From contig MEUD01000001.1 in assembly GCA_001771575.1 (NCBI GenBank), forward strand, positions 1,427,277-1,491,276: a stretch of 64,000 nt of DNA. The letters run 5' to 3'. Both the position numbers and the translations under genes were made by a program. The stretch's first letter is position 1. The number at the start of each line of letters is the position of its first letter. A model generated the notes under the pieces. That model did not search any database. It was not told the origin of the DNA and worked only from the letters and a program-made list of their open reading frames with translations. This DNA is from a candidate division WOR-1 bacterium RIFOXYB2_FULL_45_9 (lineage in GTDB: Bacteria; Margulisbacteria; WOR-1; O2-12-FULL-45-9; XYB2-FULL-48-7). Below, one piece after another: positions 4,891 through 60,369 of the stretch.

Positions 4891-4919
4891 ATTTTAGCAC
4901 AATACTAATTAATTGGCAA
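4891..4919 (-). promoter_or_regulatory. Sigma70-type promoter of rpsB-tsf
   Basis: On the minus strand TTGCCA (4919-4914) is followed after exactly 17 bp by TAAAAT (4896-4891), with an extended -10 (TGC before TAAAAT). The predicted start near 4884 gives a leader of about 44 nt carrying a good ribosome binding site. The -35 overlaps the last codons of the upstream barrel gene. Confidence 0.7.
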
Positions 4920-5898
4920 GCGCGATGAAAGTTTCCGGGGCGATCCGGCGCGGCCACCCCAGCTCGTTATAGGCAATAGAAAAATAATGGGCCTGGGTGG
5001 AGGTATTGTTGACGTTGGGGTGATAGGCGTAATTAAAATTTAGCCCGGCCCAGTTGAAGCTTAGGCCGGAAGTCAGGGTTGAGCGGTCAAGTCCGGCCCG
5101 CAGGCTGATCACGCGGGTGGGGGAGAACTCAATCCCTAAATTGGTGGTTTGCGGCATCGAAGGCTGGAAGTTAATATTGGTGTCGATCGTCATAATTAGA
5201 TCGAGGTTGGAAACGAACGCGGCCGAGTAGCTGCTGCCAAGGAGGTGGATCCTTGCTCCTCCTTTGATCGTTGGAGTTAGGTATTCCTTTTCTCCGTTTT
5301 GGTGGTTGATCGGGCTCAAGCCGAGGATGTTTTGGGCGACGATCCCGAAACTTAGCCATTCCAGACTTTTTTGGGTCACACCCAGATCAAGATTTAACCC
5401 GCTTCCGTTTGAATCCCGGTTCTCGGTTGCTTCGATCCGGTAATATTTTAACGCTCCGCCGACCGAAAAGGTCTCATCGATCTTCCGGCCAAGAGAAACG
5501 AACGCCGCGCTTTTGCCGTATTGGGCGCTTTTGCCGGCTACTCCCCGCAGATCGCGCAGGACGATGTCCGAAACAAAAGCGCCGCAGTAACCGGCGCCGA
5601 GAGCGGTCTGACTGCCGACCGGCAGAGCCCCGCCAATCAGCAAGAAATTAACGTCTTCCATCAGGGACCCGGACATGCTGGAAAAGCGGAAGCCGCTGAC
5701 CTCGCTTAAAGAGGCGGGGTTGTTAAATAGGGCGTCGCCGGCGTCGCTCCTGGCGACAAACGCGTTCCCCATCCCCAGCGCTTGCGCGCCGGTCCCGACT
5801 GCCAAAGGGTCAAATGAGGAAAGAGCGAAAACGGGAGAGAATGAAGCTGTAAGCTTTAAGCTGTAAGCGATAAGACAATAAATGAACAATCTTTTCAT
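4909..5898 (-). CDS. PorV/PorQ-like outer-membrane beta-barrel protein
   Basis: A 329-residue secreted protein. A signal peptide (MKRLFIYCLIAYSLKLTASF...VFA) is followed by GTGAQALGMGNAFVARSDAG and FNNPASLSEV, the opening signature of the PorV/PorQ branch of FadL-like barrels, in which short inward-facing strands repeat to a C-terminal aromatic-rich YFSIAYNE strand. PorV in Bacteroidetes carries cargo of the type IX secretion system at the outer membrane. The start at 5898 overlaps the stop of the upstream gene (ATGA), so the two are coupled. That neighbour is a free-standing sorting-type domain. A homologous barrel lies at 59326-60369 beside further CTD proteins. Function as a CTD-protein partner is inference. 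Confidence 0.72.
   Translation of the reverse strand: MKRLFIYCLIAYSLKLTASFSPVFALSSFDPLAVGTGAQALGMGNAFVARSDAGDALFNNPASLSEVSGFRFSSMSGSLMEDVNFLLIGGALPVGSQTALGAGYCGAFVSDIVLRDLRGVAGKSAQYGKSAAFVSLGRKIDETFSVGGALKYYRIEATENRDSNGSGLNLDLGVTQKSLEWLSFGIVAQNILGLSPINHQNGEKEYLTPTIKGGARIHLLGSSYSAAFVSNLDLIMTIDTNINFQPSMPQTTNLGIEFSPTRVISLRAGLDRSTLTSGLSFNWAGLNFNYAYHPNVNNTSTQAHYFSIAYNELGWPRRIAPETFIALAN
5844..5878. repeat. Degenerate 7-bp tandem repeat, five units, within a signal-peptide code
   Basis: On the plus strand the units are AAGCTGT, AAGCTTT, AAGCTGT, AAGCGAT and AAGACAA. Read on the minus strand they encode the IAYSLKLTAS core of the signal peptide of the barrel gene. The same 7-bp pattern recurs at 19269, 25282, 30961, 34589 and 59361. 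Confidence 0.75.
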
Positions 5899-6221
5899 CG
5901 ATTGATGACCCACACTTTTCCTTTGCCGACCCGGCCTCGGTTTTTATCGGTCAGACAATAGAGGTAGACCCCGCTATTGACCAATTCGTTTTGTTCGGTA
6001 TACCCATTCCAGCCAAAACGATTTGTCCCAACGTTCATCGCGAGGTCTTGCTTAAAAAGAAGCTGGGCCGACATGTCGTAGATATATAGGACGCTGTTAA
6101 ACGCAGTATCGGTCGTGCATTCAAAGGTCGTGGTTTGGCCGGCTTTGGCGTTGAAGGGGTTTGGGTAATTTATTATTGCCACGGTAAATAAAAGAACAAA
6201 CAACCAGCTAGCATTTCTCAT
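5895..6221 (-). CDS. Small secreted protein consisting of a FlgD/type-IX-like C-terminal domain
   Basis: A protein of 108 residues with a short hydrophobic leader (MRNASWLFVLLFTVAII) followed at once by NYPNPFNAKAGQTTTF and ending GVYLYCLTDKNRGRVGKGKV. The N-x-P-N-P-F-N start, a central VLYIYDMSAQLL strand and GVYLY near the end are hallmarks of the FlgD Ig-like/type IX sorting-domain fold that normally ends large secreted proteins. Here there is no passenger. The same domain ends the beta-helix proteins at 53631 and 56699. It is coupled by ATGA to the PorV-like barrel. AGGAG precedes the ATG. It could be a structural subunit or an adaptor; this is inference. Confidence 0.7.
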   Translation of the reverse strand: MRNASWLFVLLFTVAIINYPNPFNAKAGQTTTFECTTDTAFNSVLYIYDMSAQLLFKQDLAMNVGTNRFGWNGYTEQNELVNSGVYLYCLTDKNRGRVGKGKVWVINR

Positions 6222-53630: not shown

Positions 53631-56600
53631 ATGATAGATTTAAAATTAGATAAGCTTAAAATATATACCTGTGTAGTAATTGTTTTATCATATATTGCCT
53701 CTTCCCAAACGGCTGGCGCCGCTCTTTCCAGGACGGTAACCAACTGTGCTGATTCTGGTGCAGGGTCGCTCCGTCAAGCGGCGACCGATGCTCAAGATGG
53801 CGACCAGATAGTTTTTGCTATAACCACCCAAGAGGCGGGATATTCAGTCGGCGCGAACTCTCCTGGTTTAGTGGTTGGTGAAGTTCCTGGAAAAAAATGG
53901 TTTCGTATTATTTTGAATTCCGGGTTGCCGGTCTTGACCGCCAGTGGTGTGTCAATCAACGGCCAAACTCAAGCCGGAGAAGCGGATAATGGCGCCGGGC
54001 CGGAAGTGGAAGTCCGGGCCGCTGTTTCCTCGTTTACCGATGTTTTTACCATAAGTGGCAGCAACAACACGATCGAGGGATTAGCGATTAATAAATATGG
54101 ATCAGGTAACGGCAAGTTAGGGAGTTTGATCAACATTTTAGGTGGGCAGGGGAACATGGTTCGAAGCTGTTATATAGGTACAAGCGCGAGCGGCTGCCAA
54201 GCGGCTCCGCTGGCTTCAGATACAGGGATTTATATCGCCAATGGCGCCAATAACATCATTGGCGCCGCTGGATTTGGCAATGTTATTTCCGCTAATGGTT
54301 TATATGGGATTTGTGTTGCCGCCGGTCAGAGCAATAAAATTGCCGGCAACTTTATTGGGACAGATCCAACTGGATCAATAGATTTGGGAAATACTTATTA
54401 TGGGATTTGGCTTTATGATGGGGCTAATACCAATAAAATTGGAGGAGAGAACCCGGGCGAAGGGAATGTTATTTCCGGCAACGATAATCTTGGGGTTTAC
54501 ATCAGCGGGAGCGGAAGCAACAGCAATGAAGTTTATGGAAATATTATTGGTCTTGACCAGACCGGGCGGTTTGATTTAGGCAATAATCAGGAGGGGGTCT
54601 CCGTTTACAATGGGGCCAGCTACAACTTGATTGGCAACGGCCAAAGCGCCGGACGCAATATTATTTCAGGGAACAATCGTTATGGGGTGGCGATCGGAGC
54701 CGATGGCAACGTGGTTGCCGGCAATTATATTGGGAAGGCTATTGATGGCTTGTCATCGATTGGTAATGATTGGGGGGGTGTTTCATTATATAGCGCCGCA
54801 AAGCATAACCGAATCTGCGCCGGCAATGTTATTTCCGGCAATAATGAGGCGGGAGTGTCAATTGTTGGCAACGGGGTTAACAGCAATGAAGTTAACGGGA
54901 ATACGATCATCGGGAACTCGGGCGACGGAGTAAATGTCAGACAGGGGGCTAAGTATAACCGGATTGGTGGGGTTGGGAATGTTGTCGTCAATAATGGCCG
55001 CAACGGAATTTACCTGGTTGATCCCGGCACGAACTACAATGAGATATCTAATAATTTTATCGGGATCGACGCGGTCAGCGCTGAAGCCGGCAACGGCTGG
55101 TTTGGGGTTTACATTGACAATAAAGCTGGGGCGAACATAATTGGCTCGGCAAATGTTATTGCTTACAATGGCGATTTTATGCATCCGGCAGGGATTTGCT
55201 TGAATAGTTCTCAGGTGACCCAGGAGTTGATCAGCAGAAATTCGATTTATGAAAATTATGGACGGGGAATTCTGCTCCTTAATGGCGCAAACAATATGAT
55301 CCCGGCCCCGGTGATCAGCGCCGCCAGTTATAATCAGCCGACCGGTGAATTGGCGCTGACTGTTGCCGCCTCACCCAATGCCCAAGTTGAAATATTTAAA
55401 GCGCGCGGCGGTCAGGGAGAGTGTTATCTGTGGAGTTTTGCCGCTTCTTCCAGCGGAGAGGTTAATAGTTTAATCACCTATCCTGGATTATTGGCCGGCG
55501 ATACCTTGGTTGCCACCCAACGCGATACTTGGCAGAACTCGTCGGAGTTTTCGCCGGCCCAAACGGTAAACATTACTGTTCCTTTTGTTTATCAACCAGA
55601 AGTAAAAATCGGCACAACCGGGGTTGATTATGCGGTTGACAGAGCGACTTTGACGGTAACATCTAAAGAAACGGCGGTTTTTTATTTTTTATTAAAGAAT
55701 ACCGGTAATGTCGCCGATCAATATCACTTTTTAGTCAGCGGACCAGGCAGTGAACACAGCTTGAGAATATTTGACGCTAAAAGCGGCGGCAACGAGATAA
55801 CTGCCGTGCTCCAAGCCGGTGGTTATTCCTGTTCCCTTCCCCTTGGCGGTGAGATGGAAGGACGGATCGAGATCAACTGCTTGAGCGACCACACTATTAC
55901 CAGCGAAACCATCCTGATTGTAAATTCAATAAATGATCCCGGTAAAATTGACCAAATAAACGCAAAATCAACTTTTGTTTTTCCCGATCCACCGGCCCCA
56001 CTAACTGTGGTTTATTCTGAATCAGACCTTGGCATGCCCGGAACAAGTATTTCAATCCCCGGGGATGCGATGGTTCATATTCCGGTTATTTCTATTGTGG
56101 AAACGGAGAGCCCTGGCTCCCCTCCCGCTGGCTATCAGCTTGGCGGAAAAGTTTTGAGCGTCGTTTCCTCCGTCAAAGCATTTTCTAGGCCGATTACCAT
56201 GACCGTGCCGATTAATGGCTTGCTTTCCGCTCCACGCGTGTTTTATTGGGGGCCTGGCGGTTGGAGTTGTGAAGGAATTGAAATCACTTCCGCTACAAGC
56301 CGATCGATAACTTTTAATGTTTCTCACTTCTCAATTTTAGCTCCCATGGGCGCGCTGTCCAGCAACCTCGTCCGCATTGGGCCGAATCCATATAATCCAA
56401 ATGGCGGGACTCCGGCTAAGATTTGGTATTGGCTTGACGCCGCCGCCGCGACCAGTGTTTATATTGTTGACTTATCAGGCGCTGTTGTTTGGCAGCGGAG
56501 CTTTACCGCGGGCGCTCCCGGCGGCAGTGTTGGGGAGAACAACCTGGACTTTGACGGGAAAGATAAATGGGGACAGGTCTTAGGGGATGGGGTTTACCTT

Positions 56601-56660
56601 TACAAGATTGTCCAGGGCGGGAAAGTGATCGGCGGTGGGAAGATGGGGATAGTCAAATAG
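53631..56660 (+). CDS. Secreted beta-helix protein with FlgD/type-IX-like C-terminal domain (first copy)
   Basis: A 1009-residue protein. A signal peptide (KIYTCVVIVLSYIASSQTAG) is followed by the RTVTNCADSGAGSLRQA block common in surface beta-helix proteins, then a right-handed parallel beta-helix to about residue 560 with repeated N-x-I-x-G and NVISGN units. An extra Ig-like domain lies at about 650-780 (absent in the second copy), then a ZU5-like sandwich (VVYSESDLGMPGTSISIPGD) and a C-terminal domain starting GPNPYNPNGG and ending GVYLYKIVQGGKVIGGGKMG. The start at 53631 follows ATAAGGAG. It may adhere to or act on polysaccharide; no catalytic residues can be assigned. Confidence 0.82.
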   Translation: MIDLKLDKLKIYTCVVIVLSYIASSQTAGAALSRTVTNCADSGAGSLRQAATDAQDGDQIVFAITTQEAGYSVGANSPGLVVGEVPGKKWFRIILNSGLPVLTASGVSINGQTQAGEADNGAGPEVEVRAAVSSFTDVFTISGSNNTIEGLAINKYGSGNGKLGSLINILGGQGNMVRSCYIGTSASGCQAAPLASDTGIYIANGANNIIGAAGFGNVISANGLYGICVAAGQSNKIAGNFIGTDPTGSIDLGNTYYGIWLYDGANTNKIGGENPGEGNVISGNDNLGVYISGSGSNSNEVYGNIIGLDQTGRFDLGNNQEGVSVYNGASYNLIGNGQSAGRNIISGNNRYGVAIGADGNVVAGNYIGKAIDGLSSIGNDWGGVSLYSAAKHNRICAGNVISGNNEAGVSIVGNGVNSNEVNGNTIIGNSGDGVNVRQGAKYNRIGGVGNVVVNNGRNGIYLVDPGTNYNEISNNFIGIDAVSAEAGNGWFGVYIDNKAGANIIGSANVIAYNGDFMHPAGICLNSSQVTQELISRNSIYENYGRGILLLNGANNMIPAPVISAASYNQPTGELALTVAASPNAQVEIFKARGGQGECYLWSFAASSSGEVNSLITYPGLLAGDTLVATQRDTWQNSSEFSPAQTVNITVPFVYQPEVKIGTTGVDYAVDRATLTVTSKETAVFYFLLKNTGNVADQYHFLVSGPGSEHSLRIFDAKSGGNEITAVLQAGGYSCSLPLGGEMEGRIEINCLSDHTITSETILIVNSINDPGKIDQINAKSTFVFPDPPAPLTVVYSESDLGMPGTSISIPGDAMVHIPVISIVETESPGSPPAGYQLGGKVLSVVSSVKAFSRPITMTVPINGLLSAPRVFYWGPGGWSCEGIEITSATSRSITFNVSHFSILAPMGALSSNLVRIGPNPYNPNGGTPAKIWYWLDAAAATSVYIVDLSGAVVWQRSFTAGAPGGSVGENNLDFDGKDKWGQVLGDGVYLYKIVQGGKVIGGGKMGIVK

Positions 56661-56689
56661 TTGACAATCGTGAAATATTTGGATATTGT
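56661..56689 (+). promoter_or_regulatory. Sigma70 promoter of the second beta-helix gene
   Basis: TTGACA (56661-56666) begins right after the stop of the first copy; a 17-bp spacer leads to TATTGT (56684-56689). The ATG at 56699 is only 9 nt beyond the -10 and has no ribosome binding site, again a near-leaderless layout. Confidence 0.7.
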
Positions 56690-56698
56690 TACAAATAA

Positions 56699-59329
56699 AT
56701 GAACTGGCAAAACATTTTTTATGCCGCCCTATTGATTGTTTTTTTCTCTTCTTCAGGTCAGGCTGTTACTCGGACGGTCACTAACTGCGCTGATTCCGGC
56801 GCCGGTTCTCTCCGCCAGGCGATCACGGATGCGGCGGCCGGAGACCAAATTGTTTTTGACATTACTTTGGCTAATGCCGGCTACTCCACCGGAGAATCCG
56901 GACCCGGGCTGGTGACAACCGAAGCGGGGAGTAACTGGTGGTACAGGATCGTTCTTCGGTCAGGCTTGCCGGATATCACGGTCAATAATTTAACGATTGA
57001 TGGATCGACCCAAACCCGCGAAGCCGAAAACAGCCAGGGCCCGCAGGTAGAGGTCAGGGCGAGCGTGGAGGCATATACTATTGTTTTTCATGTCAAAGGG
57101 GATAACAACGTTATTCAAGGGCTTGCGGTCAATAAGTGCGGGCCTATTGGCGGTCGTGGCGGGGCTTTGATCATCATTAATGATTCAGATGGGAACATTA
57201 TTAAGGGATGTTATGTCGGCTTGTCGGCCAGCGGGGATGCGACTGCGCCGCTGACCTGCTACGATGGTATTTATTTGGTTAACGACAGCAACAATAATTA
57301 TATTGGCGATGGGACCTCTGCCGGCCGCAACGTGATCTCCGGCAATTATTCGAGCGGCGTTTACTTGTATAGTGGCAGCGGGAACACAAGCAATAGAATA
57401 TTAGGGAATTATATTGGGACCGATCGGACCGGAGCGATTGATCTTAGCGGCGCCCAAAATGGCGTTGTTATTTATAATGTTTCCGGCAATCATGTGGGAG
57501 ATGGGACGGTTGGCGGACGTAATATTATTTCCGGCAACGAAGATGGCGTTTATATTTATTCCGATGCCTCGACCAACGAAGTCAAGGGAAATTATATTGG
57601 CGTAAACGCTTCCGGCTCGGGCCTTCTTGGTAACGAGTATTACGGCGTTATTCTTTCAAGCGGCGCTTTTGGCAATATCATTGGCGGTACTGATTCTGGG
57701 GACAGGAATATTATCTCCGGGAATAATTTGGGGATTTATATTTCAAATTCCAATAGCAATGAGGTCCTTGGGAATTATATTGGCTTGAACGCCGCGGGGA
57801 CGGCGAAAATCGCCAATAATTATGGAGTGCGGATCAGCGGGACTTCCGTTAGAAATAAGATCGGCAATGGAACGGTTGGCGGCCGCAACGTTATTTCGGG
57901 CAATAGTAATCACGGTGTTTATCTGTATGGATCGTCAAGCAACGAAGTTTTAGGAAATTATATCGGCCTAAGCCCGAATGGGCTAAGTTCAATCGGCAAT
58001 ACCGTCCATGGAGTAGGGCTTTATAACGGCACCCACCATAATTATATCGGCGATGGGACCACCGGCGGCAGGAACGTTATCTCCGGCAACCAGATGTCGG
58101 GGATCGCGGTGGTCTCGTCGGACAATAATTATATTATGTTGAACTACATTGGGCTTGGGAGCGACGGGCAAACTAACGTAAAAAACGAGCATTTTGGGGT
58201 ATACAGTCTGACCGGCAGTCATGACAACTATTTTTATAAAAATACCGTTGCTTATAATGGTAATAGCACCTATCCAAACGGCATCCAGATAAAGGATTCC
58301 AACACGACCCATGAAACCATCTCCCAAAATTCAATTTTTGAAAACTTTGGAGAGGGGATAAAATTGTATCTTGACTCAAACCTTGGGATCCCATCGCCGG
58401 AAGTTATAACCAACGAATATAATCAGACTGCCGGTGCCCTAAGGGTGACCGGGTCCGCTTCACCAAACGCGACTGTCGAATTTTTTAAGGCCTATGGCGA
58501 CGAAGGGATAACTTATCTTGGCGCTTTATCGGCCGACTCTTCCGGCGCGTTTAACGGGACGATAACCTACAGCGGCTTGCTTTCCGGGGACTACTTGACG
58601 GCGACCCAGACCGGACAATTGGGGGACACTTCCCAATTTAGCGCGTCCATGGAAGTGCTGGTCGTGACTTCAACCAAAGAATACTCCAGCTCCGACCTTG
58701 GCATTCCCGGGATGACGATCACTATTCCCGCCGGGGCGAGCGCGACCGATCCGACGATCGCGGTGACTGAAGTCGCCAGTCCGGGGAACCCGCCGGTCGG
58801 GTATATGATCGGCGGCAAAGTATATGATATTGTTTCATCGATCACCAGTTTTACCCTGCCGGTGACCGTAACTATGCCGATTAACGGACCGCTGGCCGAT
58901 CCACGGGTCTACTACTGGACCGGAAGCGGCTGGAGTCGAGACGGGATTGTGGTCGTTTCTTACACCGACGCCTCAATCACTTTTACCACGACCCATTTTA
59001 CGATCTTTGCTCCGATCGGGGCCCTTTCCAGTAATGTGGTCCGCTTTGGACCCAATCCCTATAATCCGAACAGCGGAGCGGCCGCCAAGATCTGGTACTG
59101 GCTTGATTCTGCCGCGGCGACGAGCATTTATATTGTTGATCTGACCGGGACGATCGTTTGGCAGAATAGCTGGGCTGCTGGAGTCCCAGGAGGCAGTGCC
59201 GGAGAGAACAATATCGATTTTGACGGCAAGGATAAATGGGGGAGCGTTTTGGGCGATGGGGTTTATTTATATAAGATCGTCCAGGGTGGAAAAATCGTTG
59301 GTGGCGGAAAGATGGGGATTGTCAAATGA
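56699..59329 (+). CDS. Secreted beta-helix protein with FlgD/type-IX-like C-terminal domain (second copy)
   Basis: An 876-residue paralogue of the preceding gene: signal peptide (MNWQNIFYAALLIVFFSSSG), RTVTNCADSGAGSLRQAITD, a long beta-helix with units such as GRNVISGN and NEVLGNYIGL, a ZU5-like sandwich (EYSSSDLGIPGMTITIPAGA) and the C-terminal domain (GPNPYNPNSG to GVYLYKIVQGGKIVGGGKMG). The C-terminal domains of the two copies are nearly identical while the helices have diverged. The stop overlaps the start of a PorV-like gene (ATGA), tying cargo and barrel together. Confidence 0.82.
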   Translation: MNWQNIFYAALLIVFFSSSGQAVTRTVTNCADSGAGSLRQAITDAAAGDQIVFDITLANAGYSTGESGPGLVTTEAGSNWWYRIVLRSGLPDITVNNLTIDGSTQTREAENSQGPQVEVRASVEAYTIVFHVKGDNNVIQGLAVNKCGPIGGRGGALIIINDSDGNIIKGCYVGLSASGDATAPLTCYDGIYLVNDSNNNYIGDGTSAGRNVISGNYSSGVYLYSGSGNTSNRILGNYIGTDRTGAIDLSGAQNGVVIYNVSGNHVGDGTVGGRNIISGNEDGVYIYSDASTNEVKGNYIGVNASGSGLLGNEYYGVILSSGAFGNIIGGTDSGDRNIISGNNLGIYISNSNSNEVLGNYIGLNAAGTAKIANNYGVRISGTSVRNKIGNGTVGGRNVISGNSNHGVYLYGSSSNEVLGNYIGLSPNGLSSIGNTVHGVGLYNGTHHNYIGDGTTGGRNVISGNQMSGIAVVSSDNNYIMLNYIGLGSDGQTNVKNEHFGVYSLTGSHDNYFYKNTVAYNGNSTYPNGIQIKDSNTTHETISQNSIFENFGEGIKLYLDSNLGIPSPEVITNEYNQTAGALRVTGSASPNATVEFFKAYGDEGITYLGALSADSSGAFNGTITYSGLLSGDYLTATQTGQLGDTSQFSASMEVLVVTSTKEYSSSDLGIPGMTITIPAGASATDPTIAVTEVASPGNPPVGYMIGGKVYDIVSSITSFTLPVTVTMPINGPLADPRVYYWTGSGWSRDGIVVVSYTDASITFTTTHFTIFAPIGALSSNVVRFGPNPYNPNSGAAAKIWYWLDSAAATSIYIVDLTGTIVWQNSWAAGVPGGSAGENNIDFDGKDKWGSVLGDGVYLYKIVQGGKIVGGGKMGIVK

Positions 59330-60369
59330 GAAAGAGCTCATATATATTTTTTTGTTTAATGCTTACAGCTTACAGCTTACAGCTGTTTTACCCTGCTTCC
59401 GCCTCCCAAGTCGTCGACCTGACCGAGATCGGCATTGGGGCCAAGCCGCTGGGGATGGGGAGCGTGTTCAATCCGGAGGATAACAGCGGTTCGCTTTTTC
59501 AAAACCCGGCCGCTCTCGCCAACATCGGGAAATACAGCCTGACCAGCATGAGTGGGAACGTTATGGGAGAGGTCCCGTACCTGATGTTTGGCGGAGCTTA
59601 TCGGACAAATTATGGGACGATCGGCGTCGGATATATTAATGCTTCGGTCGGTGGGATCAAAGAAGCGACCCTGGTCAACGGAGTGCCGGAGATAACCGGG
59701 AACGAAGCGAATTATGGGAGTGGGACCCTGCTTATTGGTTTTGCTAAAGATGCAAAATGGAACACCAAGGTTGGCGCCAGCCTGAAGTTTATCAACCAGG
59801 GATTTAGCGGAGCGCCCAGTTTTGAGGGGGCGGGTGGGGGTGGTTTTGACCTTGATCTTGGAACGATTATCCCGATAAATGAACGACTGACCGGGGCGTT
59901 GACGCTCAAGAACATAATTCCCGGCAGTAATATGCGCGGGGATGAACTGCCGCTGGCGATCGTCGGCGGCCTTGCTTATAAAGTACCCGATAGGAATTGG
60001 CTGGCTGCTGTTGACCTCGCATCCACGACCCGAGGGCTCTTGTTCCATTTGGGGGCGGAGTGGAACCCGTTCAAACAGTTCTTTTTACGCGCCGGTCTGG
60101 ACCAAAAACCGGATAACATTAACTATTCGCTCGGGGTTGGAACACGAGCGAGAGGTTTTAATTTTGACTACGCTTATCATACTTATGCCGGATTAGGAGA
60201 AATGACGACCCATTATTTCTCGATCGGTTATGTTGGGGAAGAGCCCAAAGTTGAATCACCGCCACCCGTTGCTCCGAAGCCGGTTATCGTTAAGCCGGCA
60301 GTTAAAAAACCGGGTAAAGCCCCGGTCGTAATAAAGAAGAAAGTTATTATCCCTCCGAAGAAAAAATAA
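59326..60369 (+). CDS. PorV/PorQ-like outer-membrane barrel with Pro/Lys-rich tail
   Basis: A 347-residue homologue of the barrel at 4909-5898. A signal peptide (MRKSSYIFFCLMLTAYSLQL) precedes EIGIGAKPLGMGSVFNPEDN and LFQNPAALANIGKYSL, the PorV/PorQ opening, and strands run to THYFSIGYVGEE. A 40-residue tail rich in Pro, Lys and Val follows (VAPKPVIVKPAVKKPGK), absent from the other copy and unusual for the family; it might bind the cell wall. It is coupled to the beta-helix gene by ATGA. Confidence 0.75.
   Translation: MRKSSYIFFCLMLTAYSLQLFYPASASQVVDLTEIGIGAKPLGMGSVFNPEDNSGSLFQNPAALANIGKYSLTSMSGNVMGEVPYLMFGGAYRTNYGTIGVGYINASVGGIKEATLVNGVPEITGNEANYGSGTLLIGFAKDAKWNTKVGASLKFINQGFSGAPSFEGAGGGGFDLDLGTIIPINERLTGALTLKNIIPGSNMRGDELPLAIVGGLAYKVPDRNWLAAVDLASTTRGLLFHLGAEWNPFKQFFLRAGLDQKPDNINYSLGVGTRARGFNFDYAYHTYAGLGEMTTHYFSIGYVGEEPKVESPPPVAPKPVIVKPAVKKPGKAPVVIKKKVIIPPKKK
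59361..59381. repeat. Perfect 7-bp tandem repeat, three units, within a signal-peptide code
   Basis: Three perfect copies of GCTTACA encode LTAYSLQ in the signal peptide of the PorV-like protein. It is the cleanest case of the pattern seen at 5844, 19269 and 30961. Confidence 0.85.

Follow-up and report, generated by a model that had tools for sequence, protein, structure and literature searches.

Descriptions of the type IX secretion system (T9SS) and of SprA confine them to Bacteroidota or the FCB group. SprA is the channel in the known systems, and PorV serves only as a carrier (PMC10994853). Two T9SS proteins, PorU and PorZ, are known to be retained on the cell surface by PorV and PorQ (PMC5562754), and PorP plus PorE link some of the type B cargo of Bacteroidota to the cell wall (PMC9143113, PMC12618676). 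Another kind of attachment is found in the OmpM-type tethers, whose S-layer homology (SLH) domains bind the cell wall (PMC10628300). Our literature search returned no paper that mentions PorV and S-layer homology together, or Margulisbacteria and type IX secretion.

The locus considered here lies in a 64,000-nucleotide stretch of DNA (the window) from a WOR-1/Saganbacteria genome of the Margulisiibacteriota, which is a single 1.67-Mb contig; the analysis draws throughout on sequence and predicted structure, mostly from MAGs. Three ORFs on the same strand are packed closely together between gltD and glnA (Table 1). The first two encode proteins whose passengers are both beta-helices with 45% identity; their C-terminal domains (CTDs) are more alike, with 81% identity over 106 aa (GPNPYNPN to GGGKMGIVK). 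The first-pass annotation had described two beta-helix proteins with nearly identical CTDs and an overlap of four bases between the second of them and a PorV-like gene, and both descriptions hold. It overlooked a further CTD/PorV pair, which the window carries on the minus strand (4909-6221). The upstream member of this pair is a CTD-only gene with counterparts in two further genomes (L201, L173) and a slightly longer form in a third (L195), and for this reason we consider a decayed remnant unlikely. Genes of this kind suggest that the CTD is a barrel partner in its own right and more than an export tag.

Table 1. Positions of the features discussed; unprefixed numbers refer to the window.
Feature	Position	Strand	Remarks
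Beta-helix protein 1, 1009 aa	53631..56660	+	N-terminal signal-like stretch, right-handed beta-helix, Ig-like spacer, CTD
CTD of beta-helix protein 1	56349..56657	+	
Beta-helix protein 2, 876 aa	56699..59329	+	Architecture as beta-helix protein 1
CTD of beta-helix protein 2	59018..59326	+	
ATGA overlap, 4 bp	59326..59329	+	Shared by stop of cargo 2 and start of barrel
PorV-type 14-strand outer-membrane barrel (predicted), 347 aa	59326..60369	+	Pro/Lys-rich C-terminal tail
CTD-only gene, 108 aa	5895..6221	-	Hydrophobic signal-like stretch and CTD, nothing else
Second PorV-type barrel	4909..5898	-	ATG overlaps stop of CTD-only gene by 4 bp (5895-5898)
C-terminal SLH fused to PorV-type barrel	L024 5828-7792; L022 5875-7836; L022 9620-11542; L027 6198-8429		
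CTD-bearing subtilisin	L237 1350-3560; L021 1065-5138		Convergent with SprA-like gene
lepA-adjacent PorV-type gene	L026 5662-7425		Counterparts L043, L048, L051, L054, L057, L058, L059, L062, L163, L178, L202
Second SprA-repeat protein, 996 aa	L020 3610-6600 (G000:C1:1377609-1380599)		Near ruvC
9118-aa ORF ending in CTD	G000:C1:656430-683786 (L257, L258)		Uninterrupted

Assignment of the barrel was made from both family models and predicted fold. Against the NCBIfam model PorV_fam (NF033709, the PorV/PorQ family), the window barrel gives an E-value of 5e-16 and 59 bits, which falls below the curated cut-off of 90 bits; the second window barrel reaches 83.8 bits against the same cut-off, and three paralogues in the genome exceed it (92.8-104.6 bits). 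A sequence search of the PDB with the window barrel alone gave nothing useful, and a search of the genome contigs with it gave no matches. The AlphaFold model has 14 strands (mean pLDDT 81), and Foldseek, run against 350,542 PDB chains, places two PorV chains from T9SS translocon complexes at the top (6h3i_F and 8gl6_F; E 3e-10, TM 0.65), with FadL and TodX ranking after them. The predicted structure is that of a 14-strand FadL-type barrel nearest to PorV. Since the best structural matches are PorV, they give no reason to place the barrel outside PorV/PorQ, and the PorV/PorQ-like identity proposed by the first-pass annotation is upheld.

The window CTDs score 15.6 and 14.0 bits against TIGR04183 (T9SS type A CTD), under the curated cut-off of 23, and the CTD of a paralogue (L024) scores 23.0 bits, right at the cut-off; the window CTDs also match FlgD_ig of Pfam, below its cut-off. 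When a profile of the family, built from eight CTDs all of this genome, was compared with the PDB, PorU came first (E 1.2e-7), followed by PorZ (E 5e-5) and then FlgD (1e-4 and weaker). A lysine is found near the C terminus in 52 of 65 CTDs. It may be structurally equivalent to the lysine, almost invariant and likewise close to the C terminus, that is a hallmark of type A CTDs (PMC10994853).

The window locus is one case of a lineage-wide rule, and the CTD-then-PorV adjacency is far beyond chance. In the class genomes sampled, a CTD gene lies directly upstream on the same strand for 65/111 testable PorV-family genes (those with a visible upstream ORF) and for 2/370 other genes (Fisher test, p about 2e-47), a rate that applies to PorV genes sampled as best matches to the window barrel and so is not a percentage for every PorV-like gene of the class. 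Most of the 65 pairs are close (59 within 30 bp), and 24 have the 4-bp overlap. The earlier proposal that cargo and carrier are made together can be extended from one locus to the whole class. In the present genome we count about 14 genes of the PorV family and 17 good CTDs; eight of the PorV genes are directly downstream of a CTD gene, and eight CTD genes are without a PorV neighbour.

Paired passengers vary, from beta-helices and Ig/TIG repeats to giant proteins (3395, 4412, and 9118 aa). The ORF for the largest takes up approximately 1.6% of the genome, and downstream of it is a PorV barrel of 743 aa with four SLH domains. We note that a distant member of the phylum (L255), read by eye, has a CTD gene followed by a PorV-SLH-like gene in the same order. 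A PorV-type gene that has no CTD partner, mostly with SLH, is divergent from lepA in 12 genomes. By analogy with F. johnsoniae, where one orphan SprF-like carrier serves the orphan CTD proteins (PMC12618676), it could be a candidate general carrier for orphan CTD proteins.

In a mirror-tree comparison, CTDs and barrels correlate with r = 0.47 (within-genome shuffles, 0.05 +/- 0.04). We rejected this correlation as proof of CTD-barrel binding, because cassettes are inherited whole and because matching of CTD and barrel where the passengers are unrelated is only slightly above chance (104/376 vs 83.5 expected), which amounts to little sequence evidence for partner-specific co-adaptation. Most of the correspondence between CTD and barrel sequences from genome to genome reflects cassettes passed on as units.

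About half of the paired barrels run on into SLH-containing extensions, many with TRAE-type motifs, and 16 of the 19 SLH repeats in the genome sit on PorV-family ORFs. Those fusions that we scanned have a Glucodextranase-B-like linker; in the window barrel, a basic Pro/Lys tail takes the place of the SLH domains of its paralogues. Of 30 genomes, 27 have CsaB, the enzyme family responsible for the pyruvylated SLH ligand. We suggest, by analogy with the OmpM-type tethers, that the SLH-bearing barrels anchor the cargo complex to the cell wall.

The first-pass annotation had also raised a T9SS-like or PorV-dependent route outside Bacteroidetes and named SprA, PorU, and PorK/L/M/N as the components to look for. 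Class-wide CTD-PorV pairing speaks for such a route; the genomes do not appear to contain a complete T9SS. The C25 peptidase domain of PorU (PF01364) is in no class genome searched, and the same search detected C25 in a distant phylum member (G034, 1e-51). GldM, GldL, and GldN were not detected in 38 class genomes, which does not prove their absence since the control genomes likewise gave no match. No full-length SprA was found, only shorter SprA-like barrels: the SprA model matches protein families of ~1000 aa and ~1360 aa, together in 36/38 genomes, and the matches never reach its 200-bit cut-off. As phage-tail models also match the repeat domain to which the sequence similarity is limited, we rejected SprA HMM matches alone as proof of SprA.

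A sequence search of the PDB with the SprA-like protein alone gave nothing useful. When the structural model of the ~1360-aa protein (residues 158-1357, pLDDT 82, pTM 0.43) was compared with the PDB, the three best matches were SprA chains (8.9e-12 to 6e-10), with a TM of only ~0.3, and Deinococcus SlpA and LptD ranked below these. This protein may be a functional counterpart of SprA, an assignment about which our doubts slightly outweigh our confidence. Its gene is convergent with that of a CTD-bearing subtilisin (S8) in 15/15 genomes measured, and this synteny may reflect passive inheritance. It is possible that the subtilisin is a maturation protease in place of PorU. The other, 996-aa protein carries a single repeat of the SprA type, and its C-terminal part resembles a barrel.

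In the end, we consider it probable that the locus serves a sortase-less, apparently motor-less, T9SS-like surface-display route as a dedicated cassette of cargo and carrier. Each CTD cargo would have its own dedicated PorV-type carrier, which would bind the CTD and keep the cargo on the surface. Because a PorU-type sortase is absent, the CTD would not be cut off, and the cargo would remain on its own barrel much as PorZ does on PorQ or type B substrates on PorP/SprF. In the sister cassettes the SLH domains of the barrel would tie the complex to the wall, so that one chain would do the jobs of PorP plus PorE. The candidate translocon is the conserved ~1360-aa SprA-like barrel that adjoins the subtilisin gene. 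Without a motor, release of carrier and cargo would need another route; we suggest that a one-to-one, one-use carrier would make recycling unnecessary. Of course, the F. johnsoniae T9SS stalls in the absence of GldL with the substrate stuck on the translocon (PMC10994853), which makes the energy source of a motor-less route a difficulty and counts against this explanation.

The same components could also be read as a separate Margulisiibacteriota branch of CTD-directed outer-membrane export with a short SprA-type translocon, no proton-driven motor or sortase, and one-use, co-translated PorV-type carriers that complete the export and are often SLH-anchored to the wall. If so, the CTD-only genes would imply a CTD-barrel complex that functions in the absence of cargo. 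We view this as possible and are inclined to doubt it. A reduced but true T9SS would leave cargo and carriers as described, with the SprA-like barrel a genuine orthologue and with a motor and sortase so highly diverged that they were undetected. The SprA-like barrel is indeed conserved with SprA as its top structural matches, and the adjoining S8 protease could replace PorU; however, C25 is absent from the class, the SprA match is limited to a widespread repeat, and GldM, GldL, and GldN went undetected in the 38 genomes (though, as noted, the controls were silent too). Taken together, we judge a reduced T9SS unlikely. Pairing one to one and overlap of the reading frames are reminiscent of two-partner systems, in which case each PorV-type barrel would itself both export and hold the CTD protein encoded with it and a separate translocon would be superfluous; the SprA-like protein is in any event no more than a candidate translocon. 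However, the modelled barrel is a 14-strand FadL/PorV-type with no POTRA domains, a narrow passage for a polypeptide that includes a folded Ig domain, and known T9SS use SprA for the channel and PorV as carrier only (PMC10994853), so export by the barrel itself is quite improbable. Equally improbable, in our view, is that secretion is not involved and FadL-type uptake barrels are simply co-transcribed with periplasmic proteins bearing a FlgD-like Ig domain, since the curated Pfam match to FlgD_ig, the sub-threshold T9SS sorting models, and the appearance of FadL and TodX after PorV in the fold search are set against a CTD profile that prefers PorU and PorZ over FlgD, a PorV match that outranks FadL, and passengers of typical cell-surface kinds (beta-helices, Ig/TIG repeats, giant proteins, subtilisins).

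Judged from sequence, the combination of PorU/PorZ-like CTD cargo with dedicated, often SLH-bearing, putative PorV-type carriers outside the FCB group is real, strongly conserved, and apparently undescribed. A conserved CTD-plus-PorV system in Margulisiibacteriota would imply that CTD-directed display is more widespread or older. If the surface-display route is as we propose, PorV-type carriers would operate without the usual motor and sortase, and surface display and SLH wall tethering would be joined in one protein. The system would also open a test of whether the motor is required for translocation itself or just for carrier release and recycling. The order CTD gene, ATGA, PorV could provide a genomic marker for surface proteins of uncultured lineages.

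In its cargo-carrier logic the arrangement appears to resemble type B of T9SS, with its identity as a T9SS putative. As with the type B CTD and PorP/SprF of F. johnsoniae and P. gingivalis (PMC12618676, PMC9143113), the carrier gene is directly downstream of the cargo gene and there is one cognate carrier per cargo; retention on the carrier is the likeness that we propose. Some type B units are wall-tied via PorE, whereas the tie proposed here is the SLH fused to the barrel. The carrier also differs in being of the PorV family, the CTD is PorU/PorZ-like, the phylum is another one, and the motor is undetected. By sequence and fold, the nearest CTD and barrel families are those of PorZ:PorQ and PorU:PorV of P. 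gingivalis (PMC5562754), but that organism has one pair of each and the present lineage has many paralogous pairs and no C25 sortase. The OmpM/SlpA-type tethers of Terrabacteria (PMC10628300) likewise have SLH on an outer-membrane barrel. OmpM combines an N-terminal SLH with a porin barrel, whereas here C-terminal SLH triplets are found on a PorV-type barrel that is paired with a putative surface protein.
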